Of a DNA stretch of 46,329 bases, positions 33,223 through 46,329 are shown piece after piece (the first letter of the stretch is position 1; every line of letters begins with the position of its first letter). The stretch comes from an uncultured Acidobacteriia bacterium (GTDB lineage: Bacteria > Acidobacteriota > Terriglobia > Bryobacterales > Bryobacteraceae), in NCBI GenBank assembly GCA_903929755.1, contig CAIYVZ010000174.1, positions 1 through 46,329 of the forward strand. The letters are read 5' to 3'. The notes below the pieces were generated by a model. The model did not search any database and was not told the origin of the DNA. It saw only the letters and a list, made by a program, of their open reading frames with translations. The position numbers and the translations under genes are program-made.

Positions 33223-36200
33223 TTAGATGGTTTCGACTGCAACCCTCTGCATAGTGAAGCCTTCGATAATGTCGCCCTGGTGGACGTCATTGAAGTTGTC
33301 GATTGTAATACCGCACTCCATACCGAAGCGGACTTCGCTGGCGTCGTCTTTGAAGCGACGGAGCGAGCCGATCTTACCGGTATGAACCACAATATTGTCG
33401 CGCAGGATACGAACCTGCGAGTCGCGCGAGATGCTGCCATCGACCACAAGACAACCAGCCACGGTACCGATCTTCGAAACGCGGAAGACTTCGCGAATCT
33501 CAGCCCGACCCTTGTACTGTTCCTTGTAGACCGGAGCCAGCAGGCCCGACATGGCCTTCTTCATCTCGTCGATCAATTCGTAGATGATCGTGTGGAGACG
33601 AAGGTCGACCTTTTCACGCTCAGCAAGCGCCGAGGCATTGCGTTCCGGACGGACGTTGAAGCCGATAACGATGGCTTCCGACGCGACCGCCAGATCGACG
33701 TCCGATTCGTTGATGGCGCCGACACCGGCACGCAGCACACGAATCGTGACCTTTTCGGTAGAGAGCCGTTCGAGGGTGTCCTTGAGAACTTCAGCGGAAC
33801 CACCGACGTCGGCTTTAAGGATGATCGGCAGTTCTTTAACTTCGCCGGCCGCACCCATCTTGTTGAACTGCTCGAGCGTAATGCGCCCGCCCTTCGCCAT
33901 CTGTGCCGCACGTTCCTTTTCAGAACGATAGATGACGATCTGTTTCGCCTTCGCAAGGTCGGTAACCACCTGGAAGCTGTCGCCAGCTTCGGGGAGATTT
34001 TCCAGACCGAGAACTTCGACGGGCATGGACGGCGGAACTTCCTTCGTCTGCTCGCCAAGATCATTGAGCATGGCGCGGACACGCCCGAAGACGGTGCCGC
34101 AGATGAAGTAATCGCCGACACGGAGCGTACCGTTGCGGACGAGTACCGTCGCAACCGGGCCACGACCACGGTCGAGTTTAGCTTCGAGAACGGTCGCCAT
34201 GGCGGGCCGACTGACGTTGGCCTTGAGGTCAAGCATTTCGGCCACCAGGAGGATCATTTCGAGCAGCAGATCGAGGTTCTGGCCATTACGGGCTGAGACC
34301 GGGACCATGACAACGTCGCCGCCCCAATCTTCGGCCAGGAGGCCGCGATCAGAGAGCTGTTGCTTGATACGGTCAGGCTGGGCATCGGCCTTATCGATCT
34401 TGTTGATGGCAACAATGATCGGGACTTTCGCCGCTCTGGCGTGATCGATGGCTTCGAGCGTCTGCGGCATAACGCCGTCATCCGCCGCAACTACAAGGAC
34501 CACGATATCCGTTACTTTGGCGCCGCGGGCACGCATGCGGGTAAACGCTTCGTGACCAGGCGTATCGATGAAGACGATCTTGTTGCCGTTCTTCTCCACG
34601 TGATACGCGCCGATGTGTTGGGTGATACCACCGGCTTCGCGTCCGGCCACGTTGGCGGAACGGATGGAATCGAGCAGTGATGTTTTACCGTGATCGACGT
34701 GACCCATGATGGTGACGACGGGGGGACGGCGGGTGAGGTCTCCGGAAGATTCCGCGACTTCCACATCCCACATGGCTTCTTCTTCGTAGGTAACCGTAGA
34801 AGTAGACGCCCCGAATTCACGGGCGATATCGTTGGCGAGCTTGCCATCAAGAGTCTGGTTGATGGTGGCGAAGATGCCCCGGTCCACCAGCTTCTTGATG
34901 ACGAAGTTCGACTTAACATCCAGCTTTTCGGAAAGCTCCTTAACGGTGATGCCTTCCGAGATGGTAATGTCGCGGTTGATTGGCGGAGGAGCCGCCATTT
35001 CGCGGCGCGAGGGCCGGAGAAGCTTCTCGTGATCTTCCCGGTGACGCTGCCGAGGCCGACTCTGGTGTGGCGCGGGGCGACGTCCAGCCTGATCTGGCGA
35101 GGGTGGCGGAGCTCCGGGAAGGAGCGGGCCGCCACGCGAAGTGGGGTGCATCGGCCGGGGGCCGCCGGGGCGGTAGGCGCCGGGACCACCGGGGCCGCCG
35201 GGACCGGGCATACCCGGACGGGGACCACGAGCCTGCGGGGCAGACGGCTGGCCGGGACGGGCGGGACCCTGATAGAGAGGCTGGCCCGGACGCGGAGACT
35301 GCGGCCGGAGTGGAATATTTGGACGGGGCGGGGCCTGGCCCGGCATGGGCGCACGCTGCTGCTGTTGCTGTCCGAGTTTCGCTACAAGATCGGGACGCGG
35401 CGGCACTGTGGGGCGAGCCATGGGCTGGCCGGCCAGCGGAGGCCTGTTACCTTGCGGTGCCTGCCCGGGAGGCGGACCAGCCGGACGGCGGGGCGGAGCT
35501 CCGGGAGGAGGACCACCGGGACCGGCGGGATGACCATGGCCCTGGGCCGAAGGAATTCTGGGGCCGGGGGCGCCGGGAGCGGCAGAAGCCGGCCGGGGCG
35601 GCGGCGCAATGGGCGCACCGGGCCGTACCTGAGAAGGTGGCCGGGGCATGGGCGGCGCTGCGGGAGGCAGGGGCTGCCGGGGGCCGGACAGAATCTGGCC
35701 AGGGCGCGTGGGCGCACTGGGAATCGGACGGGCCGGAGGCGGCGTGGGCCGACCAGGAATGGCGGAAACGGGCGGGGGCAGCGGAACGGCCGCCGGACGC
35801 GCTTCCGGAACTCTGGGAGCAACTGCGTCGCCTGGTTTTAAATCAGGGGCCTTTAGGTCCACAGGCCTGGCTTCGGCTTGCTTGGCTTCCGACACGGGAG
35901 CTTCCGAGACCTTCGCCTCAGCAGGCTTGCTTTCGACAAGTCTGGCAGCAGGCCGGGGTTCGGCATGCTTTGGTTCAATATGTTTCGCGTCGAGTGAAAC
36001 CGGGCGCGGTTCAAACGGAGGGCGGACCGGAGGTGCAAGACCGGCGGGCGCGCGGTTGCCGAGCGGCGGCTGAATCGGCGTGGCCCGACCCATAAGTGGT
36101 GGCCGCAGAGGCAGGGAGCGAGGCCGGAACTCTTCCTTATCTTCTTCCTTTGCAGTCTCAGCAGGCGCGGACTTGCCAGCTTCCGCCGGGGGGGCGGTTT

Positions 36201-36582
36201 CGACGGGAGTGGAGCGTCCGGCTGCCATCGCGACTTCGCGAACGGCAGGGCGAGGCTCAGACGCCGCAGCACCTGATTCGCCGGGCGAACTCGGTTCGGC
36301 GGCAACCGGCCGTGGCCGGAGTTCTAAAGACTTATCGCCCGCATAATATCGGCGGACCTGATCAGCCAGGTCGTCGTCGATAGAGCTCGAATGTGTCACA
36401 TTCTCGGCGATGCCGAGTTCCCGGATTTTGTCGATGAGGTCTCGCGACTTGACTTCCACCTGCCGCGCTAACTCATTGATTCGGATCTTGCTCGTATTCA
36501 AAAGTTTCGTTACCTGCCCGCTGCCGGCGCCGTTGCCTTCGCGCCAATCAGCATTCCACAACCAAAGCGTTCCGGCAGACAT
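33223..36582 (-). CDS. infB: translation initiation factor IF-2
   Basis: A GTPase of about 1119 residues that brings initiator tRNA to the 30S subunit. Order: an N-terminal IF2_N helix ([20 protein letters not shown]), a very long Pro/Gly/Ala-rich linker of about 450 residues, a second IF2_N module ([20 protein letters not shown]), the G domain with [17 protein letters not shown] and NKIDKADA, then domains II-IV ending [12 protein letters not shown]. The start is uncertain: ATG 36582 is chosen, but the frame opens at a TTG at 36624, and an internal TTG just before NTSKIRIN would suit the family. The linker makes it longer than the roughly 890 residues of E. coli IF-2. Confidence 0.93.
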
Positions 36583-36637
36583 AGAGCGCCGGATTCTCCC
36601 ACGAGCCGTACCGCGGCACACCAATGTGCCGACATAG

Positions 36638-38152
36638 TTAGGCTTGTACTTCTGGTTCCACTATCGTAGCAGAGCCGTCATCCTCTGCGATTTCACCACT
36701 TTCGGGGGCTGCGGCTTCCTCGGCAACAGCTTCCGATTGGGCTGACTCACCTTCGGCGGGAACAGCTTCTTCTGCCACAGCTTCTTCCGTCACAGCTTCT
36801 GCCAAAGCTTCTTCCGCAACAGCTTCTTCCGCAACAGCTTCATCCGCTTGAGCGTCGTCGGCCGCAGCCGCAGCCGCTTCAGCTTCCTGCGTATATTCCT
36901 GACCGTAATACGAATTGATGGCCTGTTGGATATGTGCCACAGCCTGACCGTCGATGCCGGGGATGGATTCCAGCTCTTCCGGGGTCATGCTGCCGACCTT
37001 CTCCACTGTGCCGATGTCGCCCTTAACGAGCGCATCCACGGTGGATTCGGCCAGACCGTAGTCAATGAGAGAAGATACCGGGACGCCGGTGGAGAGGAGC
37101 GTCATGGCGTTCTGCATCTCCTGGCGCTTCTCTTCCTCACTCTTAATGTCGATTTTCCAGCCCATCAGCTTAGCCGCCAGCCGGACGTTCTGGCCGCGCT
37201 TCCCGATGGCGAGCGAGAGCTGCGTGTCATCCACGATTACTTCCATGTGGCGCTCTTCGGGATTCAGGATATTAACGCGGGTGATCTTGGCCGGACTCAG
37301 CGCGTGCGTAGCGAAACCGACGGCGTCTTCCGACCACTCAATGATGTCGATTTTTTCGCCGCGGAGCTCGCGGATGATGGACTGGACGCGCATGCCCTTC
37401 ATGCCGACGCAAGCGCCGACCGAATCGACGTCGCGGTCCTTGCTCTGCACGGCGATCTTGGTACGTTCCCCAGCTTCGCGGGCACAGGCCTTGATGGTGA
37501 CGGTGCCGTCGTAGATTTCGGGAACTTCCTGTTCGAACAAGCGACGGACAAGATCCCCATCGGCGCGAGACACAACAACGCCGGGGCCTTTGGCCGACTT
37601 ATCCACCATTTTGATCACGCAGCGGACGCGGTCGCCGGCGTTGAACGTTTCAAGCCGGGACTGTTCGCGCTTCGGCAGACGAGCTTCGGTCTTGCCAAGA
37701 TCGACCACGAGGTCCATGCCTTCCACGCGCTTGATAGTGGTGTTCACCAGTTCACCGACGCGGTCGGCGTATTCGCGATAAATGGTGTCGCGTTCGGCTT
37801 CGCGAACTTTTTGGAAGATGACCTGTTTGGCAGTTTGCGCGGAAATGCGACCCAGCGCGTCCGTCGGCTTTGCGATGCGGATGACGGAACCGATGTCGGC
37901 AGTGGGGTCAATGCGCTTCGCTTCGTTGAGCGTCATTTCAAGCGCGGGATCGGTGATGACTTCTGCAACCGTCTTGACGGCGTAGAGCTTCAGGCCTTCT
38001 TTGCCGCTGAAATCCGCTTCGTAATTTTCATTGGTGCGGAAGTGCTTGCGGGCAGCCAACAACATAGCGTCCTTCACGGCGTCAAGTACGATCTGAGCGT
38101 CAATGCCCTTCTCTTTACTCAGGATTTCAATCGACTGATATATGCTGTCCAC
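36638..38152 (-). CDS. nusA: transcription termination/antitermination factor NusA
   Basis: A 504-residue RNA polymerase-associated factor controlling pausing, termination and antitermination. GTG 38152 with a GAGG site six bases upstream is taken as start, giving VDSIYQSIEILSKEKGIDAQ, the standard opening; an ATG 45 bp upstream lacks family similarity. Domains: N-terminal RNAP-binding, S1 (VGELVNTTIKRVEGMDLVVD), two KH domains (the second with LSLAIGKRGQNVRLAAKL), a helical C-terminal module (TPEELESIPGIDGQAVAHI), and an Ala/Glu-rich acidic tail of about 75 residues built from repeats of AVAEE, not part of the core family. It sits between rimP and infB as usual. Confidence 0.93.
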   Translation of the reverse strand: MDSIYQSIEILSKEKGIDAQIVLDAVKDAMLLAARKHFRTNENYEADFSGKEGLKLYAVKTVAEVITDPALEMTLNEAKRIDPTADIGSVIRIAKPTDALGRISAQTAKQVIFQKVREAERDTIYREYADRVGELVNTTIKRVEGMDLVVDLGKTEARLPKREQSRLETFNAGDRVRCVIKMVDKSAKGPGVVVSRADGDLVRRLFEQEVPEIYDGTVTIKACAREAGERTKIAVQSKDRDVDSVGACVGMKGMRVQSIIRELRGEKIDIIEWSEDAVGFATHALSPAKITRVNILNPEERHMEVIVDDTQLSLAIGKRGQNVRLAAKLMGWKIDIKSEEEKRQEMQNAMTLLSTGVPVSSLIDYGLAESTVDALVKGDIGTVEKVGSMTPEELESIPGIDGQAVAHIQQAINSYYGQEYTQEAEAAAAAADDAQADEAVAEEAVAEEALAEAVTEEAVAEEAVPAEGESAQSEAVAEEAAAPESGEIAEDDGSATIVEPEVQA

Positions 38153-38186
38153 GTTATGCCTCGATTTACCGTATGGGAAAGAAAAA

Positions 38187-38720
38187 TTACCACTCAAACT
38201 TCAGATGTGCCTTACTGACAAGGTCAAAAGGGAAAGTGACGGAGCGGCCTTTACCAAGATCCACTGTAAGCGTCTTGTCGGCCTCCGAGGTTTCCAGAAT
38301 CAGCCCCTCGAAACTCTTCACCTTACCGTCTTCGATGGCATCCCGAAGCGTGACCTTAGCGGCCTGACCCCGAAAACGCTCCCAATCTTTCCACTTCCGG
38401 AGAGGGCGCTCGATGCCTGGAGACGAAACTTCCAGGCTGTACGTACCTGGGATGGGATCCTCTTTGTCGAGGAGTTCGCCCAAGTCGCGGGAGACTTTCT
38501 CACAATCCTCGTGGGTGACGCCTGGCTGGACTTCCTCAGGCGCATCGTCACCCGGCGTGGCCGTTTCCGAGAGCGGTTTGTCGATATAGACGCGGAGATA
38601 ATGACTGCGACCGGTACCTTTGAGCTCAACCTCAAACAATTCGAGGCCAGCCGCTTCCGCCACCTGGGTGGCGAGGCGTTCGATGGCGGCGATCATCTCT
38701 TCTTTTGTTTTTAACGGCAT
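38187..38720 (-). CDS. rimP: ribosome maturation factor RimP
   Basis: A 177-residue protein needed for 30S assembly. Family marks: IERLATQVAEAAGLELFEVE at the start, LRVYIDKPLSE, the VSRDLGELLD segment, YSLEVSSPGIERPLRK, then the C-terminal SH3-like part ending LVSKAHLKFEW. An inserted ETATPGDDAPEEVQPG loop lies between the strands. ATG 38720 is within a set of 17-bp tandem repeats and has no visible ribosome binding site. First gene of the operon with nusA, infB, ylxP-like and rbfA. Confidence 0.92.
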   Translation of the reverse strand: MPLKTKEEMIAAIERLATQVAEAAGLELFEVELKGTGRSHYLRVYIDKPLSETATPGDDAPEEVQPGVTHEDCEKVSRDLGELLDKEDPIPGTYSLEVSSPGIERPLRKWKDWERFRGQAAKVTLRDAIEDGKVKSFEGLILETSEADKTLTVDLGKGRSVTFPFDLVSKAHLKFEW

Positions 38721-38757
38721 AGCGTTTTTAACGGCAGAGCGTCTGTAACGGCATATT
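38707..38757 (-). repeat. three tandem 17-bp repeats across the rimP start
   Basis: GTTTTTAACGGCATAGC (38707-38723), GTTTTTAACGGCAGAGC (38724-38740) and a diverged GTCTGTAACGGCATATT (38741-38757) follow one another with no gap. On the minus strand each contains ATG or CTG followed by CCGTTA; the lowest-coordinate copy provides the rimP start. The uppermost copy begins an eight-codon open frame MPLQTLCR with stop TAA at 38728-38730, ending 7 bases before the rimP ATG. Confidence 0.85.
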
Positions 38758-38775
38758 AGGCTTCGTGCAATAAAA

Positions 38776-38795
38776 AAGTGGGCTTGCGCCCACTT
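38776..38795 (-). terminator. Rho-independent terminator or attenuator before rimP
   Basis: An 8-bp perfect stem AAGTGGGC/GCCCACTT with a four-base loop, followed on the minus strand by TTTTATTGCAC. It lies 55 bp before the rimP ATG. It may stop readthrough from the ATP-grasp/lasso operon upstream, or act as an attenuator in the rimP leader, as seen in other bacteria at this place. A TAATAT at 38753-38758 (minus strand) could be the -10 of a promoter just after the hairpin. Confidence 0.8.
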
Positions 38796-38799
38796 CTTT

Positions 38800-39130
38800 G
38801 GCTCGACCTTGCAAATCCCAGTATACCAGAAATGGAAACCGAGTGTTGCAGAATGGGACGAATTGACACCGCCTCGAAGGGGTGCGGTAGCTACTTGGAC
38901 GCAGACTGGCGGAAACCTCGTGGATCGGGAGTAGCGTTCTGCCATTCAAGAGGGGGGCCTCGTCCTGGGCTTTGAAGCGACGCAGTCACGGCTTGTGACT
39001 TCTTCATCCCCTGGTGCGTGATTCACCGCCTGCGTGGACTCGGACTCGGACTCGGACTCGGACAGGACCGGCACGGAGACGTTCGCGCGCGGTCGCCCTC
39101 CAGGATATTGTGGCCCCCATCGACCTCGAA
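38800..39130. other. non-coding gap between rimP leader and ATP-grasp gene
   Basis: No gene is supported here. A short repeat of GGACTC (four units, 39036-39059, plus a partial one) is the only clear structure; the minus-strand open frame across it (62 codons, Glu-Ser repeats) has no family features. Confidence 0.5.
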
Positions 39131-40261
39131 TCAAGAGGCGGTTTCCGCACTCGCAGCCGCCCAGCGGCGTAACAGGGGCTCCAGGCGCGGCGTATCCAAT
39201 TCCTGGAGGGCAGAGAGGTTGGTTAAGATCCAGTCGCCGCAGGTGTTGCCCTCCAGAATGACCGGGCCCTCGGGTGTCAGCATCAAGTCCCAGTTCACCA
39301 GCGGCAGCCCAGGCAAGAGCACCATCGCCTGTAGCGCCATTTCTGCGGCCCTGAGGAAGTCCGGTACGGGCCCCCCGGCAAGCGGTGCCTTGTTCCAGGG
39401 CAGGGCCACATAATCGATACCGGGGTGGAGAAACCAGATCCCGGCCCCCATGAGAGCGGTGCGGGGATGAACCGGAACACGGATCTGCCCCCTGATGAAG
39501 TTACGGGGATTTTCGCCCGGTACGTCGAAGGCGAGGAAGGCGCTGTGGAGGAAGGGAGCCTGGCCAGGATTCCGAGCGGTGGTCAGGCGGAGCACGGGGC
39601 CGCTGAGCAGCGGCTGCACCAGAGTGTCCCGTGAGACGTCTGCGGGGATTGACGCCGCATCCTGAATCACCCTCGCCCCCCGACCTCCTGAGCCGTGCCG
39701 GGGCTTGATGAACAACTGGCCCGGATGCGTCCATGCGGGAGCGTCCGCAGGAAGGCCCGTCCCTGGGCGAATCACACCCAATAAGGTTGGTACGGCCAGC
39801 CCGGCCCGCCGCAGCATCTCGCCGGTAGTAAGTTTATCGCTGAGCAGGCTGTGTTCCGCCGCGGCGCCAAGTGTGGAAAGGAAGCGGCCCGCTGCCCTGC
39901 CCGGCAGGGGATGCACGCCAGGCGGCGAAAAGAACTGGCGCCAGATCCACGCCTCGTTGGGGCGCGCCCCACTTTGCAAACAATCGAGGAATAACCGCAG
40001 CGTGCGGCCTGGCGGGTAACTCCAAACGTGACCAGCGCAGGCGACGAGCCAGGCGAGCCGGGCAAGCGGGATCAACAGAGGGCGACTCCACCACGGCACG
40101 CGGCGCCAAAATACGGCCGCCGCACTTTGTCGGAGGTCCGCAAAGACTCCTGTCGGGGAAGGGAACAGGCCCTGGCCATCGTACGGCAGACTTTGCCACA
40201 ACCGGCTCTGCCACAACCGACTGTGCCACAACCGACTTCGCCAGAACCGGGGTGTCCGCAT
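39131..40261 (-). CDS. ATP-grasp protein (sugar-transfer-associated type) in the lasso locus
   Basis: A 376-residue ATP-grasp ligase-fold protein. The ATP-binding glycine loop is FIKPRHGSGGRGA at residues 184-196 and the metal-binding end is NWDLMLTPEGPVILEGN at 323-339, with Asp, Glu and Asn in the expected places. The closest recognised look is the family called sugar-transfer-associated ATP-grasp, found in surface-polymer clusters. The start ATG 40261 lies 4 bp after the stop of the cyclase gene, so it belongs to the lasso operon. The first 24 residues are a repeated SRLWQ stretch, possibly an amphipathic or membrane-contacting tail. It could attach an amino acid or similar group to the peptide, but the reaction is unknown. 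Confidence 0.75.
   Translation of the reverse strand: MRTPRFWRSRLWHSRLWQSRLWQSLPYDGQGLFPSPTGVFADLRQSAAAVFWRRVPWWSRPLLIPLARLAWLVACAGHVWSYPPGRTLRLFLDCLQSGARPNEAWIWRQFFSPPGVHPLPGRAAGRFLSTLGAAAEHSLLSDKLTTGEMLRRAGLAVPTLLGVIRPGTGLPADAPAWTHPGQLFIKPRHGSGGRGARVIQDAASIPADVSRDTLVQPLLSGPVLRLTTARNPGQAPFLHSAFLAFDVPGENPRNFIRGQIRVPVHPRTALMGAGIWFLHPGIDYVALPWNKAPLAGGPVPDFLRAAEMALQAMVLLPGLPLVNWDLMLTPEGPVILEGNTCGDWILTNLSALQELDTPRLEPLLRRWAAASAETAS
40196..40255 (-). repeat. 15-bp repeats encoding the ATP-grasp N-terminus
   Basis: Four 15-bp units (40196, 40211, 40226, 40241), the first three sharing CCACAACCG on the plus strand, the last diverged. In frame they encode repeated Ser-Arg-Leu-Trp-Gln/His at the protein N-terminus. 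Confidence 0.75.
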
Positions 40262-40265
40262 GCCC

Positions 40266-42074
40266 TCAGCCCCGTCGGGCCACGGCCTCGGCGAACTCAA
40301 GGGCTCGCGCCGCCGACAGGACACTCCCGAGTTCTGCCCCAATCGCGTCCAGGTCGAACATTTCGCGGGCGGCGGGCGAGCGACGGACCAATTCCAGCCG
40401 GACGCGGAAAGCGGATGCCTCTAAAGCCAGGTTCGAAAAGACGTCCGGGAACGGCAAAAACTTAGACGTGCGCCAGCGGATCGATTCCGGCAGGATTCCG
40501 GCCATCGCATTGCGGTAAGGCTGACGGGCGAAGCCGCCATCCACCAACCGATTGAGGGGCAGCGACTGCGTGAAATCCAGAATACGTCTGTCCGCCAGTG
40601 GATACCTAAAGGCAATGCCGTGGCGCGCCCCCAGAATGGACCAGTTGTCAGCACGGGTTACAAGGTAGCTTTCAGTCAGCATTTGAACCCTGTCTTTGGG
40701 CCGATTCTTCCACTCAAATTGTGCCGGGAGCGATTGCCGCACTTGTTCTGCGAAAGGAGGGCGCAGGAAGGACAATGCGGCCTCGCGACCCTGCACGGGG
40801 TCGCTCTGCCCAAATTTGGAAGGGAGGAGGTGCTCCGTCCAGTCAGGCAAAAACGGAAACAGAAGGCGGCCGACGGCGACCCGAAGCAACGATTTACCTT
40901 CGCGCCGGGCAATCGCCCGCAATTCCCGAGGCAGGGGCCGCAGGCAGCCGGAGCGTAATACCGCAGCATACAGGCCTGCGCCATTGTAGGTTGCGCCCTC
41001 ATCCCCCCCGGCGCCGGACAATAACACCTCGCAGCCGGCGGCGGCGGCTTCTGCGCAAATCAGCGCCGCGGACCAGCTTCCGGGTCCGCCGAGGGGGAGG
41101 TCGGGATCGGAGACTCCGGTTTCATCCGGGGTGGGCTGATAGGCGGGCGACCATTCAATATCGGGTTCCTGAGCCAGCACGGCCTCCACATACTCCCGCT
41201 CGTCCCGCACCTTGCTTTCGGGTCTGGCCAGTTGGGAGAACGTGTGCAGTTTCCGCCGAGCCTCGCGAAGACGTCTGGCCGCAAGAACTACTACGGCAGA
41301 GGAATCGAGCCCCCCGCTCAGGTGCGCGGCGACGGGCCCCGCAGCGGGTAACCGGCAGGAGACCGCCTCCTCCACCAGGGTGCGCAGGGTTGCGGCAGCC
41401 TCCTCCGCTGAGCCACGCCAGGTTCCCACCTGACCCGGCTCGGGCCGCCAGGCACGGTGGACCCGCAGGGCTTCCTTGGTCACTTCCAGGCTGTGACCCG
41501 CAGGCAGCCACGAGATCTCTTCGAATACGGTGGTACTTTCGCGAAGTCCGGCCTGGACATACCGCCGGCCGAGCGCCACCAGATCCAGGCGCGGGGCTAC
41601 TACCCCGGATGCATGCAGGCCGCGCGGCAGGGAAGCGAATGCGAACAGCTTGCCGGGCCGGTAAACGTAGCAAAGAGGCCGGACCCCCATAATGTCGCGG
41701 GCGCAACGCAGCCGTCGCTGTCGCGGATCCCATGCCGCCAGAGCGAAATCCCCGTGTAGCCGGTCGGGTAAATCCAGACCCCAGCGTTCCAGCCCAGTGA
41801 AGGCGGCAGTGAAGGCGCTTGCATCATTCAGGCAGCTGGAGGGCTGGTCGGGACGAAGATCGGCAGCAAGCCAGCTCCCGTCGGGGCCGGTCGGCAAGGT
41901 GGCCGATACGGTTGCCCTGGAGAAATCCAATACGGCCAAACCGGCGGGGCCGTCCACCCGCTGCTGCACCTGCGCTTTGAGGCCTGGAGCCGAAAGCGCT
42001 GCGATCATTCGGGCAAGCGTGGTGGCGTCTGCGGGCGCGCCATCCAGTTGCACGATTCCGCAAATCAGCCGCAT
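40266..42074 (-). CDS. lasso peptide cyclase (asparagine synthase-like, C protein)
   Basis: A 602-residue homologue of asparagine synthase B that would adenylate an Asp or Glu side chain of the core and close the macrolactam with the free N-terminus. The PP-loop SGGLDSS is at 253-259 and the second ATP-site motif LLSGAGGDEG at about 351-360. The N-terminal glutaminase-like half begins MRLICGIVQLDG; the Cys is residue 5, not the exposed N-terminal Cys needed for glutamine hydrolysis, as expected for lasso cyclases. Its ATG overlaps the TGA of the PqqD-like gene. An ordinary asparagine synthase is less likely given the RRE, leader peptidase and precursor beside it. Confidence 0.87.
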   Translation of the reverse strand: MRLICGIVQLDGAPADATTLARMIAALSAPGLKAQVQQRVDGPAGLAVLDFSRATVSATLPTGPDGSWLAADLRPDQPSSCLNDASAFTAAFTGLERWGLDLPDRLHGDFALAAWDPRQRRLRCARDIMGVRPLCYVYRPGKLFAFASLPRGLHASGVVAPRLDLVALGRRYVQAGLRESTTVFEEISWLPAGHSLEVTKEALRVHRAWRPEPGQVGTWRGSAEEAAATLRTLVEEAVSCRLPAAGPVAAHLSGGLDSSAVVVLAARRLREARRKLHTFSQLARPESKVRDEREYVEAVLAQEPDIEWSPAYQPTPDETGVSDPDLPLGGPGSWSAALICAEAAAAGCEVLLSGAGGDEGATYNGAGLYAAVLRSGCLRPLPRELRAIARREGKSLLRVAVGRLLFPFLPDWTEHLLPSKFGQSDPVQGREAALSFLRPPFAEQVRQSLPAQFEWKNRPKDRVQMLTESYLVTRADNWSILGARHGIAFRYPLADRRILDFTQSLPLNRLVDGGFARQPYRNAMAGILPESIRWRTSKFLPFPDVFSNLALEASAFRVRLELVRRSPAAREMFDLDAIGAELGSVLSAARALEFAEAVARRG

Positions 42075-42343
42075 CAGGCGACGTCGCCCAGCAAATTGTG
42101 TTGTCGCAACTCGGCCAGGAATGTCTCCACTTCTGCGCTACAAACCTCTGCTGTTACCTCGTACTCCACCAGCAAGGTGGCTACCAGGGCCGCCTGCGTA
42201 GTCGGATGCTCCAGCAACTCCCAGATCCGGGTTGCCATCGCATTCAGGCTAAAATACTGACCCTTCTGTAAGTCCATCATGAGTAACGTCTTCTCAATGT
42301 AGGCTGCCGACTGTTCGCCCGACCTCTGAATCCTGCCGTTCAT
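42074..42343 (-). CDS. PqqD-like RiPP recognition protein (lasso B1)
   Basis: An 89-residue protein with the PqqD winged-helix fold that binds RiPP leader peptides: LLMMDLQKGQYFSLNAMATR then IWELLEHPTTQAALVATLL and VETFLAELRQHNLL. In lasso pathways this protein (B1) delivers the precursor to the leader peptidase B2 and the cyclase. The ATG overlaps the TGA of the sulfotransferase gene, and its TGA overlaps the cyclase ATG, so the order kinase-sulfotransferase-B1-C is fully coupled. Confidence 0.87.
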   Translation of the reverse strand: MNGRIQRSGEQSAAYIEKTLLMMDLQKGQYFSLNAMATRIWELLEHPTTQAALVATLLVEYEVTAEVCSAEVETFLAELRQHNLLGDVA

Positions 42344-43233
42344 GCGATCCCCTCACCCTTCGTTACAAGTTCGTAGCCCAGCCGCGCCATGGTCGCCGCG
42401 TGGGCGCCTTCAATCTCACATACCTGAGCGTTACTCAGCTGTTCTCTCCAGGCTCCGGACCGGCCCTCGCGAAAGAACATTGCCTGTTCCGGGCCGCGCT
42501 CGCGGAACCCCTTGGCGCTTTCCTGGCGCCGGAGTTCACTGAAATCGGCGTGACGTACCGCTCTGGAGACGGCATCGGTGGCGGCGAGCTCATCAGGGAA
42601 TGCAGCCCCCAGAAACTCCAGCGCCCGCCGGAACACGCCGCAGGTATCGGCCCGCAAATCTTCGTAGCGGATCAGGTGAACGCGGACCACGGTCTGGTCG
42701 AGCCAGCTCCGGACGTGCCCGCTCCAGTCATCCAACTGCTGCGGAAAGTGAAATTGCCCCCCTGCCAGAAAATTCCCCGGACGGTTCAACCTCTCTATAA
42801 CCTGATCGACGGTCCTGGCCTGGTGGAAGGCGAAAGAAATGGCCACATCCCTCGGGTCGCGCACCAGGTACAGGGCGGCCCGCGCCCCCCGGCCCAACAC
42901 GGGCCGGCCATCGGGCAGGCACCGCCAGACATCGTGTACCTTCACGAAGCGCGCGGTGGTGCCAGTCGCCGTATTTGCGTCGTGGACGGCGGGGAGCAGG
43001 TCTTCAATTTCGTGCGGGCGAAGCAGCGAGGAATCCAACAGAGTCTGCTCCTCAAACTGTTCCCGGTTGCAAGCCATCCCGTCATGCAGGGCAAGGTTGT
43101 TGATGTCCTCCGGGCTCTCGCTGCCGGAAAGCAAATTGGACAGCAAAATACGCATCCAGGTGTTGCCCGATTTCGGATACGAGGCGATCCATACATGGCC
43201 CGGCGGAAAGACTTGACCCGGCGGCAGGCTCAT
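42340..43233 (-). CDS. PAPS-dependent sulfotransferase in the lasso locus
   Basis: A 297-residue sulfotransferase. The 5'-phosphosulfate loop is YPKSGNTW at residues 19-26, the 3'-phosphate site RDPRDVAISFAFH starts at 125, and a candidate catalytic His is in FVKVHDVW near 100. ATG 43233 is chosen because it makes an ATGA overlap with the kinase stop; a start at 43251 is possible. It would move sulfate from PAPS to a hydroxyl. Neither predicted core contains Tyr, so Ser or Thr side chains (or another molecule) would be the acceptor. Placement between kinase and B1 in a coupled operon makes tailoring of the lasso peptide the best guess. Confidence 0.82.
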   Translation of the reverse strand: MSLPPGQVFPPGHVWIASYPKSGNTWMRILLSNLLSGSESPEDINNLALHDGMACNREQFEEQTLLDSSLLRPHEIEDLLPAVHDANTATGTTARFVKVHDVWRCLPDGRPVLGRGARAALYLVRDPRDVAISFAFHQARTVDQVIERLNRPGNFLAGGQFHFPQQLDDWSGHVRSWLDQTVVRVHLIRYEDLRADTCGVFRRALEFLGAAFPDELAATDAVSRAVRHADFSELRRQESAKGFRERGPEQAMFFREGRSGAWREQLSNAQVCEIEGAHAATMARLGYELVTKGEGIA

Positions 43234-44186
43234 TGGGGAAGTCCGCTCCAATGGGTCCGCAGCTCCATCACCGTTTGGGCGAGATGGTCCAGGCCAGACG
43301 GCCGGGTCAAAGTGAAGACCGGAACACGACTCACCACTGCGGCAGTTACGGCAACCTGAGAACCGCCCCGAACCATCGCCAGGGAAACCCGGCGACGATA
43401 GCTCTGGCCGTGCAGCACCTGCGCACTCTCCAGAGCAGAGAGCCGTTCGATCACTGTCTCGCTGGACAATTTGTCGGTTTGCAGGATGTACACGGCGGCC
43501 AGACGGAGGGGCGCTCCTGCTTCTCGGGTGGAAATCTCATGGGGAGACGGAGGGGGCTCGACGTAGAATTTTTCTACGCCCGGACGCACCTCGCCACGCC
43601 GCTGCGCTGCCAGCTTGAGATGGGCAATGCTGTTTTCGAGCAGCTTCAACTGACGCCCGTCCGGCCAGATCACGGGACCACCGGCTTCGGTCAGGCTCAC
43701 GGAGCAGACATCGTCGTTGACAAAGCGAGTGCCATTCTGGCAGAGAGCTGCCGCCAGGGTGGATTTCCCCATGCCACTCCTGCCACAGAAGACATAGGCG
43801 CGGCCTTCAGCATCTGCCACGGCAGAACCATGCAGCACCAAGCCACCGCGTTGCAGCAGTAAGACACCCAGACCGGTACCAAGCACGAAAGGGAGAGCCT
43901 CGTGCGGGTCTGTTCCGGGTGCGGGATCGAGGTCAACTGTATGGCCATCAGTGCAAAGCATCCCCCCAATCCCGGCCAGCCGCAGCAGGAACTGGTTGGC
44001 GTTGAGCTCCCAGCCGGGGCCTTGTTGGGCTGGAGATGCCAACTGGCCGGGAACCGGACGGAGCCGAATGCGCACATCAGGCTGCCTGAGGGGGGCCGGA
44101 ATCGGATCTACACCGGGCAATTCCAGCTCAGAACTAACCATTAGACCCGAAATCCGAAACGTCCAAATATTCATCTGAAATTTCAT
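43230..44186 (-). CDS. HPr-kinase-like lasso peptide kinase
   Basis: A 318-residue protein related to the C-terminal catalytic domain of HPr kinase/phosphorylase. Walker A is GRSGMGKST at 135-143, a conserved His precedes it in VLHGSAV (119), and FVNDDVCSV at 155-163 supplies the acidic pair. In known lasso clusters such kinases phosphorylate the C-terminal Ser of the core; both precursors here end in Ser. HPr kinase itself is unlikely, since no ptsH is near and the N-terminal domain differs. The start may be ATG 44186, 44174 or 44141; the region in front is shared with the divergent precursor promoter. Confidence 0.82.
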   Translation of the reverse strand: MKFQMNIWTFRISGLMVSSELELPGVDPIPAPLRQPDVRIRLRPVPGQLASPAQQGPGWELNANQFLLRLAGIGGMLCTDGHTVDLDPAPGTDPHEALPFVLGTGLGVLLLQRGGLVLHGSAVADAEGRAYVFCGRSGMGKSTLAAALCQNGTRFVNDDVCSVSLTEAGGPVIWPDGRQLKLLENSIAHLKLAAQRRGEVRPGVEKFYVEPPPSPHEISTREAGAPLRLAAVYILQTDKLSSETVIERLSALESAQVLHGQSYRRRVSLAMVRGGSQVAVTAAVVSRVPVFTLTRPSGLDHLAQTVMELRTHWSGLPQ

Positions 44187-44239
44187 GCTAACATGACTTC
44201 AGCTCCTGTAAGCTAGTGGAGGCAGGGAGATCAAACACG
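44187..44239 (+). promoter_or_regulatory. divergent promoter region of the lasso locus
   Basis: Between kinase and precursor A1. TAACAT at 44189-44194 is a candidate -10 for the precursor; the matching TAAGAT in the duplicated unit is at 45200-45205. A shared block GCTCCTGTAAGCTAGTGG (44202-44219) recurs at 45213 and 45803, and GGGAG at 44225-44229 is the ribosome binding site, ten bases before the ATG. Promoter call rests on conservation between the copies. Confidence 0.5.
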
Positions 44240-44401
44240 ATGAACACGATGAAAACGAACGAGATGGAAGTTAAGCATCAGGGCGTGACACTTCAGCGCC
44301 AACCGTGGGAGACGCCGCAGATTGACGCTGCGGCGGTCGTATTATCGACGCAAAAAAATGTCGACACAACCGAATCAGGGCTACGGAAGAATGGCTCGTA
44401 A
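44240..44401 (+). CDS. lasso precursor peptide A1
   Basis: A 53-residue peptide starting at ATG 44240 with GGGAG upstream. The leader has WETPQI at residues 23-28, which fits the YxxPxL motif read by B1 with Trp for Tyr and Ile for Leu. Thr37 stands 11 residues after the Pro, near the usual spacing for the Thr at position -2 before the cleavage site. This predicts cleavage after Gln38 and the 15-residue core KNVDTTESGLRKNGS, with Glu7 or Asp4 as possible ring acceptors (rings of 7-9 are normal, so Glu7 is preferred). An N-terminal Lys would be unusual; the alternative core STQKNVDTTESGLRKNGS with Ser1-Asp7 is possible. It ends in Ser, a kinase target. The leader is shared with A2. Confidence 0.82.
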   Translation: MNTMKTNEMEVKHQGVTLQRQPWETPQIDAAAVVLSTQKNVDTTESGLRKNGS

Positions 44402-44435
44402 CTAAGCTGGTTGTCGTTCGGTGGCGGTGAACGCT

Positions 44436-44933
44436 ATGCCTCGTCTGGCGAGAGCGGTTCGTCATTTTCTAGCTTGGCGGGCGTCTGAGCAGGTTCTTTT
44501 GCCGGCTGCGTGGATTGTGCTTGGCTACAGTCGACTGCTGGTAGCTGCGCTTCCGTTCCGATATTTCGCACCTTGGCTTGGTGCCTCCCTGGGGGCGTCC
44601 CCTTGGATTCCTCTGCTCAGCTCCGGAACCGAGACTCGCGCCGCGTCCATCGGTAAGGTGGTCCGGGTCGCTGCTCGCTATACGCCGTGGAAATCGAGTT
44701 GTTTGCCCCAGGCGATGACCGCCGCAGTCTTGCTGCGATTCTTTGCCATACCCTACAGTTTTTTCCTGGGCGTGGCCCGAACCCCCAACCATTTGACTGC
44801 CCATGCCTGGGTTGCCGCTGGTCGCGTCCAGGTTACCGGCGGCTCGGGGTTTGGTGAATTTTCCGTGGTCTGTTGCTTCGTCCGTGCGGCTTCAAAGCGC
44901 AGGGCTCCTTCCTCCTCTAGCACCCCCCTCTAA
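44436..44933 (+). CDS. lasso leader peptidase (transglutaminase-like, B2)
   Basis: A 165-residue member of the transglutaminase-like cysteine protease family that removes the precursor leader. The start ATG 44436 gives MPRLARAVRHFLAWRASEQV, the usual basic helix; GTG 44421 and 44427 are in frame just upstream. After a hydrophobic segment (LLPAAWIVLGYSRLLVAALP) comes the catalytic Cys in WKSSCLPQAMTAAVLLR and the His in TAHAWVAAGRVQ. The third residue (Asp) is not obvious: the segment after the His reads VQVTGGSGFGEFSVVCCF. It is the only intact B2 in the window and would serve both precursors. Confidence 0.83.
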   Translation: MPRLARAVRHFLAWRASEQVLLPAAWIVLGYSRLLVAALPFRYFAPWLGASLGASPWIPLLSSGTETRAASIGKVVRVAARYTPWKSSCLPQAMTAAVLLRFFAIPYSFFLGVARTPNHLTAHAWVAAGRVQVTGGSGFGEFSVVCCFVRAASKRRAPSSSSTPL

Positions 44934-44964
44934 CGAACTCAGCTGATCAGAAACACAAGCTGGT

Positions 44965-45185
44965 TTATCCAAACCTTTCCAGCAGCCGGCATGACGTTTC
45001 GTCGCTGGCCAGAAAGCGCACGGCGGCAGCAACTTCCTCGGCGAGACCAATGCGTCCCATCGGGATGGCCTGGGTGACGTGGGTTTTCTGCTCGTCCTTC
45101 GCGAGTTCCTGCGCAAGGGACTTGGTGAGGCCGAGGAGACCGGCGTTGGCGGCGACATAGGGCGAAATGACCTGCTTTTTTCCGA
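44965..45185 (-). pseudogene. C-terminal fragment of a short-chain dehydrogenase (copy 1)
   Basis: On the minus strand the DNA encodes KQVISPYVAANAGLLGLTKS, then LAQELAKDEQ and IPMGRIGLAEEVAAAVRFLA, ending LLERFG with TAA at 44965-44967. This is the last 70 residues of an SDR/FabG-like reductase. The catalytic Tyr is kept but the Lys four residues on is Asn (YVAAN), and the whole N-terminal Rossmann part is missing: homology stops where the duplicated precursor unit begins. Non-functional. Confidence 0.75.
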
Positions 45186-45190
45186 ACTTA

Positions 45191-45246
45191 AAATCATAGT
45201 AAGATCACTTTAGTTCCTGTAATCCAGCGGATGGAGATCAAACTCG
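45191..45246 (+). promoter_or_regulatory. duplicated promoter region before precursor A2
   Basis: Parallels 44187-44239: TAAGAT at 45200-45205, the block GTTCCTGTAATCCAGCGG at 45213-45230 and a GGAG ribosome binding site at 45233-45236, ten bases before the ATG. Conservation of all three elements suggests A2 is still expressed. Confidence 0.45.
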
Positions 45247-45399
45247 ATGGAAAAAAACGCGATGGAAGTTACACATCAGGGCGTGACACTTCAGCCCCAA
45301 CCGTGGGAGACGCCACGGATTGACGCCGAGGCGGTCGCATTATCGACGCAGAAGGATGCAGCTTTAGAAGAAACAACTCCCCAGAAGAATGGCTCGTAA
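45247..45399 (+). CDS. lasso precursor peptide A2
   Basis: A 50-residue second precursor. It keeps the leader blocks HQGVTLQ, QPWETPRIDA and ALSTQ of A1, but the predicted core after the STQ cleavage site is KDAALEETTPQKNGS: same length (15), same first residue, same Glu7 and same KNGS end, with the middle changed. Acceptors could be Glu6 or Glu7; if the core began at Ser, Glu9 or Glu10. The reading frame is intact although the neighbouring B2 copy is deleted, so it probably depends on B1, B2 and C of the main cluster. The gene is too short for most annotators and is easily missed. Confidence 0.8.
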   Translation: MEKNAMEVTHQGVTLQPQPWETPRIDAEAVALSTQKDAALEETTPQKNGS

Positions 45400-45433
45400 C
45401 TAAGCTGACTGTTGTCCAGTGGTGGTGAAATCT

Positions 45434-45580
45434 ATGCCTCGTCTGGCGAGAGCGGTTCGTCATCTTGTCGCCCGGCGGGCGTCCCCGTGGATTCCGCTGC
45501 TCAGCTCCGGAACCGAGGCTCGCGCCGCGTCCATGTTTCGCCCACACGCCTGCAAAACGTGCGGCACCTTCCTCCTCTAA
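45434..45580 (+). pseudogene. deleted B2 leader-peptidase copy
   Basis: An open frame of 48 codons. Its start MPRLARAVRHLVARRAS matches the first residues of the intact B2, then jumps to PWIPLLSSGTEARAAS (matching B2 residues about 50-70) and ends in a DNA stretch like the B2 3' end, in another frame. The catalytic Cys and His regions are gone, so two internal deletions removed the active site. Confidence 0.8.
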
Positions 45581-45623
45581 CGCCGCCTCTCACGAACCCG
45601 GCTGATCAGAGACACAAGCCAGT

Positions 45624-45790
45624 TTATCCAAACCTTTCCAGCAGCCAGAATGACGTTTCCGACCGTTTGCGCAGGTGGATGAGCGCAAACGGCGGCAGCA
45701 ACTTCCTCGGCGCGACCAATCCGTCCCAACGGGATGGCCTGTATGTGACTTGGTGAGGCCTTGGCCAACCCCGGCATGACCAGGGACAAC
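45624..45790 (-). pseudogene. C-terminal fragment of a short-chain dehydrogenase (copy 2)
   Basis: A second, more damaged copy of the SDR tail. IQAIPLGRIGRAEEVAAAV is in one frame and SETSFWLLERFG, ending at TAA 45624-45626, in another, so there is a frameshift; the AANAGLLGL region is deleted. Same position relative to the B2 stub as copy 1 has to the intact B2. Confidence 0.7.
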
Positions 45791-45802
45791 CTTCCCTCCG
45801 CC

Positions 45803-45820
45803 GCTCCTGTAAGCCAGTGG
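45803..45820 (+). repeat. third copy of the precursor-upstream block
   Basis: GCTCCTGTAAGCCAGTGG, 17 of 18 bases identical to 44202-44219, placed just beyond the second SDR fragment. No precursor follows. A trace of a third tandem unit. Confidence 0.65.
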
Positions 45821-45839
45821 CGGCGCACTGGTTCAGTTG

Positions 45840-46177
45840 AAATGTGAAAAAAACTGTAAAGGTTTTCGGTATCTCGACGATAGAGATATGTGGAGCGAGA
45901 CACATGACAAAAGAACGCCGAAGGACATGCTCGAAGGCCGTCGCGCGTACATCCACGCCGCGCGGACCGCAAGCTCGAACAGGCCCGGCGCAGCCGCGAT
46001 GCGGCCGCAGGAAAAGAACAAAAGAAATTGATTCCGGCCTCAAGTCGGGAAGCCGCTTAGCCGATAGACATGTGTCGGCCAAAACAGAAGCAGGCTCTGC
46101 GGGGACGCAACCTGCCAGGGTAGCCTGGATTCCCATGCCTTAAAAATCCCCGCCCGAAGGGGGGAATCTCTCGCCGT
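45840..46177. other. gene-poor stretch with possible decayed coding sequence
   Basis: No intact gene is supported. From about 45966 one plus-strand frame reads DRKLEQARRSRDAAAGKEQK and then KLIPASSREAA before a stop near 46060, and a neighbouring frame reads DMLEGRRAYIHAA just before it; together they look like a frameshifted helical protein. Family not recognised. A small GC-rich inverted repeat lies at about 46147-46166. Confidence 0.35.
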
Positions 46178-46329
46178 CGGCTCGCCTCCCGGCTCACCTC
46201 CCGGCTCACCTCCCGGCTCACCTCCCGGCTCACCTCCCGGCTCACCTCCCGGCTCACCCCCCGGCTCACCTCCCGGCTCACCTCCCGGCTCACCTCCCGG
46301 CTCACCTCCCGGCTCACCTCCCGGCTCAC
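46178..46329. repeat. 12-bp tandem repeat running off the window
   Basis: Twelve full units of CGGCTCACCTCC plus a partial one, the first with G for A and the seventh ending CCCCC. The minus strand encodes (Arg-Glu-Val-Ser)n in an open frame that continues beyond the window. Copy number cannot be known from here. Confidence 0.9.

Follow-up and report, generated by a model that had tools for sequence, protein, structure and literature searches.

A locus that encodes a kinase, a sulfotransferase and an ATP-grasp ligase beside the genes of a lasso-peptide pathway raises the question of whether all three tailoring enzymes act on the same peptide. The locus lies in a stretch of 46,329 nucleotides (the window), which is one entire contig (CAIYVZ010000174.1, assembly GCA_903929755.1) of the 6.86 Mb genome of an uncultured Acidobacteriia bacterium of the family Bryobacteraceae. 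Judged from its sequence, the locus is a lasso-peptide cluster, in which the kinase (K), the sulfotransferase (ST) and the ATP-grasp protein (hereafter, the grasp) probably act on one precursor family. What is new here is a lysine at position n-3 of the precursor core, n being the C-terminal residue, which accompanies close relatives of the grasp. The first-pass annotation of this DNA had proposed that the three enzymes share one peptide as a rarely or never characterised combination; conservation across phyla suggests the shared substrate, but the pair of kinase and sulfotransferase is not new, and the ATP-grasp is the newer element. K, ST, B1, C and the grasp are encoded on the minus strand, and A1, B2 and A2 on the plus strand, as follows:

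39131-40261, minus strand: ATP-grasp ligase (PF14397), with relatives in lasso loci of another phylum
40266-42074, minus strand: C, lasso macrolactam cyclase, starting MRLICG and carrying SGGLDSS (PF00733, NCBIfam, tree)
42074-42343, minus strand: B1, PqqD-like recognition element for ribosomally synthesised and post-translationally modified peptides (PF05402; best NCBIfam model lasso_PqqD_Bac, below cut-off)
42340-43251, minus strand, ATG start likely at 43233: ST, 3'-phosphoadenosine 5'-phosphosulfate (PAPS) sulfotransferase with YPKSGNTW, RDPRD and FFREGRSGAW (PF00685)
43230-44186, minus strand: K, HprK-like peptide kinase with GRSGMGKST, H119, K141, S142, D158 and D159
44240-44401, plus strand: precursor A1, 53 amino acids, leader motif WETPQI; homologues adjoin the operon in genomes G022 and G006
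44421-44933, plus strand: B2, transglutaminase-like leader peptidase (PF13471; NCBIfam NF033537 above cut-off)
45247-45399, plus strand: second precursor A2, 50 amino acids, in a duplicate of the A1 block that lies 998 bp downstream
45419-45580, plus strand: shortened copy of the B2 start, after A2 (repeat families D3, D5 and D7)

The seven genes reported in the first-pass annotation are all present, as seen from open reading frames, Pfam and NCBIfam, whereas A2 and its duplicated block are absent from the span that it covered (39131-44933). The ATGA overlaps that it described hold for K/ST and ST/B1, but not for B1/C, which share TGATG; the ATG of the grasp (40261) does follow C by 4 bp.

The Pfam assignments of the core enzymes are all above the gathering scores (9e-22 for B2 on PF13471, 6e-20 for B1 on PF05402 and 3e-35 for C on PF00733), and B2 also exceeds the cut-off of the NCBIfam model lasso_biosyn_B2 (82.6 vs 33). 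The best NCBIfam models of the other two score below their cut-offs: lasso_PqqD_Bac for B1 (61.6, cut-off 80), and the lasso cyclase model NF033535 for C (249 bits, cut-off 525). Since three AsnB-like paralogues from the same genome (L002-L004) also match NF033535, with 207-299 bits, this model alone is not discriminating. On the AsnB model (cut-off 267), C reaches 142 bits and the paralogues 474-534; the paralogues start with MCGI (in L002, within a longer frame) and C with MRLICG. A tree of cyclases and asparagine synthases had been set beforehand as a refuting test, and in it C stands apart from the three paralogues, which form their own group (support 100/99), and falls into a 17-row group (100/99) with the cyclases of lasso loci bearing K and mostly also ST. 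The deepest split of this tree is weak (74/53), and the long-branched cyclase of a second cluster (L013_9726) groups weakly with the paralogues. A housekeeping asparagine synthase is ruled out for C by its low AsnB score, by its start without Cys2 and by the tree.

Both precursors carry the features of lasso precursors: a leader motif of the form [WY]xxPx[ILV] (WETPQI in A1, WETPRI in A2), a Thr at position -2 (in both, STQ precedes the core Lys) and an Asp or Glu at core positions 7-9. The leader of A1 ends in LSTQ and is followed by the core KNVDTTESGLRKNGS, while the core of A2 is KDAALEETTPQKNGS; both hold Lys1, Glu7, from which a seven-residue ring is predicted, and a C-terminal K-N-G-S. 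Between A1 and A2, 92 of 105 bases are identical in the leader, 71 of 84 in the 3' flank and 15 of 15 in the last four codons and the stop, compared to only 15 of 33 in core residues 1-11; the variable core has diverged beyond its flanks, and the tail is unchanged.

Regarding the tailoring enzymes, K scores 23.8 bits on PF07475, below the gathering score of 33.3, and possesses the motif residues published for lasso kinases, with H119, G135, G138, G140, K141, S142, D158 and D159 invariant in the six kinases aligned. Its spacing between the Walker motif and the Asp pair is that of BsfK, although the His of K is one residue further off (PMC10368454; papers given by PMC number are cited here from excerpts). 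Both A1 and A2 end in Ser, as expected of a substrate of such kinases, and the C-terminal Ser is the kinase site in paeninodin-type systems (PMC9266682). ST matches PF00685 above the gathering score (7e-25), and the residues of its PAPS-binding motifs are invariant in five orthologues. In a profile search of solved structures its best relatives are Teg14 and Teg12, with StaL also among the matches; these are glycopeptide-antibiotic sulfotransferases, a kinship that fits peptide tailoring. The best Pfam match of the grasp is PF14397 (3e-17, above the gathering score), a family whose name refers to sugar-transfer loci. A sequence search of solved structures gave two unconvincing matches (best E 0.017), and a search of plasmids a single weak one. 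The grasp is rare: at E<=1e-40 it was found in 1 of 247 sampled Acidobacteriota (the genome of the window), 6 of 385 alphaproteobacterial genomes, including two already known, 3 of 82 genomes in the order of Azospirillum griseum (the L089 relative among them) and, for the order of Falsiroseomonas, 1 of 220, namely the genome from which the search had started.

The first-pass annotation would also have been contradicted by the lack of a conserved precursor next to the operon in related genomes. Conserved precursors do adjoin it, both in related Bryobacteraceae and in alphaproteobacterial loci, which rules this objection out. The window cyclase is matched at E<=1e-40 in 7 of the 257 genomes of the order, its own included, and K-ST-B1-C with a precursor occurs in five of the seven (the window, G022, G006, G015 and G011, the cluster of G006 being divided between two contigs); G009 and G186 showed no such operon. 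The grasp follows C in four of these five genomes, the contig of G011 ending inside C, and six of their seven precursors, A1 and A2 included, read Lys1...Glu7...Ser. The contigs of genus-mates are assigned to Bryobacterales, Bryobacteraceae, Terriglobia or Acidobacteriia, bearing out the acidobacterial host that had been suspected.

A cyclase scan of a collection of species genomes gave 21 distinct loci. K-ST-B1-C is found in eight alphaproteobacterial genomes (Ancylobacter, Falsiroseomonas, Azospirillum, Novispirillum, a marine alphaproteobacterium, G754, G692 and G821), all eight of which have a grasp relative somewhere; it lies beside the precursor in five, including Ancylobacter rudongensis, Falsiroseomonas algicola and the marine alphaproteobacterium. 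The full set is present in G754, G692 and G821, with the grasp after C in G754. Novispirillum itersonii holds two precursors that share Lys1 and Glu7 with those of the acidobacteria, a grasp approximately 7 kb from K, and a C approximately 2.9 kb beyond B1. In a further genome, G930, the grasp, an ABC transporter gene and B2 form a single run, and the cyclase and ST are of another clade. The loci of Pseudomonas, Acidovorax and Tistrella hold K and ST with no grasp in the examined stretch, and none was detected at E<=1e-10 in the whole genomes of two Pseudomonas and the Acidovorax. More remote grasp relatives adjoin C in three loci (L050, L078 and L082). In the trees of K and of C (26 rows each), the acidobacterial and alphaproteobacterial sets are sisters, with support of 97/97 and 100/99, respectively, for the joint group, the C trees omitting Novispirillum and G006, whose stretches hold no long enough C. 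The ST tree (24 rows) recovers the same alphaproteobacterial group with its placement unresolved, compatible with the K and C trees. The grasp tree (16 rows) again shows the group of the window and the alphaproteobacterial group, with L087 and L089 on long branches.

Other lasso genes were observed in these surroundings. In G022 (L013:9714-11637) and G006 (L016:3392-5505), a second, unlike lasso cluster adjoins the first, with cores that seem to start with GGPNP and Ile or Val at -2. G011 holds a further cluster (L018:1-4075), which comprises K, B2, B1 and C as well as an ST of which the contig edge leaves only the start. The core of this cluster ends in FGPS, and no grasp is found in its 8.5-kb contig. 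A subgroup of lasso loci with K and ST (L082, L050 and L077:671-829) has cores of the form xKxxxxxP[ST]E[AS]SP, the core in L077 being shorter by one residue. In Azospirillum griseum, an unassigned open frame (L048:810-1508) lies between the precursor and the kinase.

The relationship between the grasp and its presumed substrate was followed through a table of 33 precursors, picked by eye from pattern listings. All 33 end in Ser, a result to be read with the fact that part of the searches required it: the first two required neither C-terminal Ser nor Lys, the one yielding L077-1, L082, L085, L086 and L087 required C-terminal Ser, and the one yielding L050, L053, L057a, L075a/b, L083 and L084 admitted cores that fitted either K-x-G-S or a broader pattern with Ser as its last residue. 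Contigs fetched twice were counted once (e.g., L013/L041, L018/L049, L043/L075 and L044/L078). Among the 15 precursors accompanied by a close grasp relative, 14 have a Lys at n-3, in K-x-G-S-like tails; none of the 16 without such a relative has one, and both precursors whose contig ends before the place of the grasp do (Fisher 5.7e-8, a value that ignores ancestry). Any core Lys is found in 15/15 precursors with a close grasp, 4/4 with a remote one and 3/11 with none, the last count leaving out L077-1, whose core contains a Lys and for which no grasp of its own was detected (4/12 with it). Outside the table stand L079, L080, L081, L058 and L061, where no precursor was recognised, candidates in L019, L020 and L060, an additional candidate in L057, and the precursors that belong to other lasso clusters in L013, L015 and L016; on inspection by eye, the candidates omitted all lack a Lys at n-3.

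From the genes, operon, precursors, catalytic residues and conservation in two phyla that are observed, we infer every chemical step and their order. B1 would bind the WETPxI leader and present the precursor; K would phosphorylate the C-terminal Ser, ST would add a sulfate to some Ser or Thr, and the grasp would form an amide in the tail, for which the Lys(n-3) side chain and the C-terminal carboxylate are the most likely sites. B2 would then cleave behind the T-Q of the leader, and C would close the ring around the tail by linking Glu7 to the N-terminus of Lys1. In 10 of the 15 close-grasp cores, the ring Glu is the sole acidic core residue (further acids occur in A1, A2, G015, one Novispirillum core and G930), so that in these the amine partner, if it is a Lys, has only the C-terminus or an external acid to react with, and a graspetide-type Lys-Asp/Glu bond would be disfavoured for the family. 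A more specific version, in which a second ring joins the side chain of Lys(n-3) to the carboxylate of the C-terminal Ser over an N-G, P-G or A-G turn, or an acylation takes place there, in addition to phosphate and sulfate and in both phyla, is doubtful; if true, a natural lasso peptide, doubly locked and doubly charged, would be made in two phyla. For a PF14397 enzyme, the locus points to a residue that can be tested, Lys(n-3), and it also yields predicted product masses. The monoisotopic masses calculated for A1 are 1586.8012 for the lasso, 1666.7676 with phosphate, 1666.7580 with sulfate and 1746.7244 with both, phosphate and sulfate being 0.0095 Da apart; for the A2 lasso the value is 1569.7634. 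The same tailoring set is present in named strains (Ancylobacter rudongensis, Falsiroseomonas algicola and Novispirillum itersonii).

Several observations weigh against this pathway of three enzymes on one precursor family. Some HprK-like kinases, such as BsfK and LppK, act on Ser3 instead of the C-terminal Ser (PMC10368454, PMC13381572), while the present precursors conserve the C-terminal Ser but not position 3. The predicted structure of the grasp is moderate (pLDDT, the predicted local distance difference test, of 69), and the fold matches of the model, with D-Ala-D-Ala ligases first and PylC and RimK lower (template modelling scores of 0.31-0.41), indicate an ATP-grasp ligase only, and nothing more specific. 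Few independent events underlie the association of Lys(n-3): the main clade and, perhaps, G930, which has a grasp of only ~31% identity and no kinase or B1 visible in the examined stretch. G006 has the grasp, but a Gln at n-3, and its counterpart of Lys1 is preceded by two extra residues; Azospirillum griseum holds K-ST-B1-C with its grasp on another contig, interrupted by one in-frame stop. In A1 (D4) and A2 (D2 and E6), a further acid keeps a Lys-Asp/Glu bond possible. No transporter was recognised among the frames of 39131-46329, where no search aimed at transporters was made.

The alternative that survives best, possible though unlikely, is a phosphorylated and sulfated lasso peptide next to an ATP-grasp that would belong to a different pathway or load a small molecule, with K-x-G-S as a recognition or steric tail motif of this clade only. 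The naming of PF14397 for sugar-transfer loci would fit it, as would the fact that Lys(n-3) follows the clade in the K and C trees and that a grasp relative exists (L089, genome G1279), with an identity like that of G930, for which no lasso gene (K, ST, B1, B2 or C) was detected in 19.5 kb and which adjoins a polysaccharide-deacetylase-type gene. However, the grasp is tied to lasso genes in differing arrangements in both Acidobacteriota and Alphaproteobacteria, and G930, with C and ST of another clade, nevertheless has a grasp together with a KAGS tail. A mere chance neighbour is likewise unlikely, given these several arrangements in two phyla.

The site of sulfation gives rise to another alternative, in which K and ST both act at the C-terminal Ser, ST either replacing the nucleotidyltransferase of pseudomycoidin-type clusters and capping the phosphoserine, or competing with the kinase for this Ser. 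No fixed sulfation site was found across the 15 close-grasp cores except this Ser, the only hydroxyl position common to all of them; the ring of A2 has no hydroxyl, and neither has the tail of G692 apart from its C-terminal Ser. Known kinases do extend the phosphate, and PsmN adds a hexose to phosphoserine (PMC9266682). Nevertheless, all 15 cores contain a Ser or Thr, if not several, besides this one, and ST may tolerate varied sites. A phosphate-sulfate anhydride would also be labile, and we consider this alternative improbable. Finally, a decayed or silent cluster with no product, as the shortened B2 copy after A2 and the lack of a recognised transporter nearby could suggest, is very improbable, given that the enzyme frames are open, the catalytic residues are conserved, and A2 retains K1, E7, K12 and S15 despite the divergence of its core.

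The neighbourhood of the cluster consists of housekeeping genes: infB (IF-2) and nusA, both above the NCBIfam cut-offs, directly adjoin it (33223-38945), together with a rimP-like gene below the cut-offs. A repeat fragment follows each A-B2 copy (44924-45741), and by eye its reverse strand resembles the end of a short-chain dehydrogenase. A tandem repeat with a 12-bp unit, CCCGGCTCACCT, occupies 46178-46329 and reaches the contig end. No RNA family matched at 38700-46329.

Regarding known systems, neither a sulfated lasso peptide nor a natural lasso cluster or peptide with an ATP-grasp was found among the listed matches and excerpts of the open literature searched, most subscription papers lying outside that search; a phrase search of the open literature for the PF14397 family name gave no paper. 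Kinase and sulfotransferase together in lasso clusters were already noted in 2014 and 2021, with an unclear role (PMC4289311, PMC8498205). These clusters, from anaerobes and Firmicutes, share a putative HPr kinase and a sulfotransferase with the window (PMC4289311; Zhu 2016 via PMC8498205), but they belong to other phyla, and the excerpts mention no ATP-grasp. Paeninodin-type clusters (PadeK, ThcoK and SyanK) resemble the window in A, B1, B2, C, the HprK-like kinase, the C-terminal Ser and the His-Lys-Asp-Asp residues (PMC9266682, PMC8498205), whereas the window adds ST, the ATP-grasp, Lys1, a predicted seven-residue ring and a K-x-G-S tail. The BsfK cluster of Bradymonas has the split B1/B2 and the HprK-like kinase in common with the window, but its kinase acts on Ser3, Ile occupies position -2, and it holds a nucleotidyltransferase and an ABC transporter, with no ST or grasp named in the excerpt (PMC10368454). 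For the lysine, albusnodin offers a precedent, as a core Lys is conserved where the clusters carry a Lys-modifying enzyme, although that enzyme is a GNAT acetyltransferase and not an ATP-grasp (PMC9266682). A counterpart of the proposed product is of human making: chemists now build lasso peptides with ATP-grasp-modified tails as engineered lasso-graspetide chimeras (PMC13003496, 2026). These are artificial fusions, modified by a graspetide synthetase that does not belong to PF14397 and described there as bearing modifications 'not seen in nature', while the locus presented here would place a lasso peptide with an ATP-grasp-modified tail in bacteria of two phyla.

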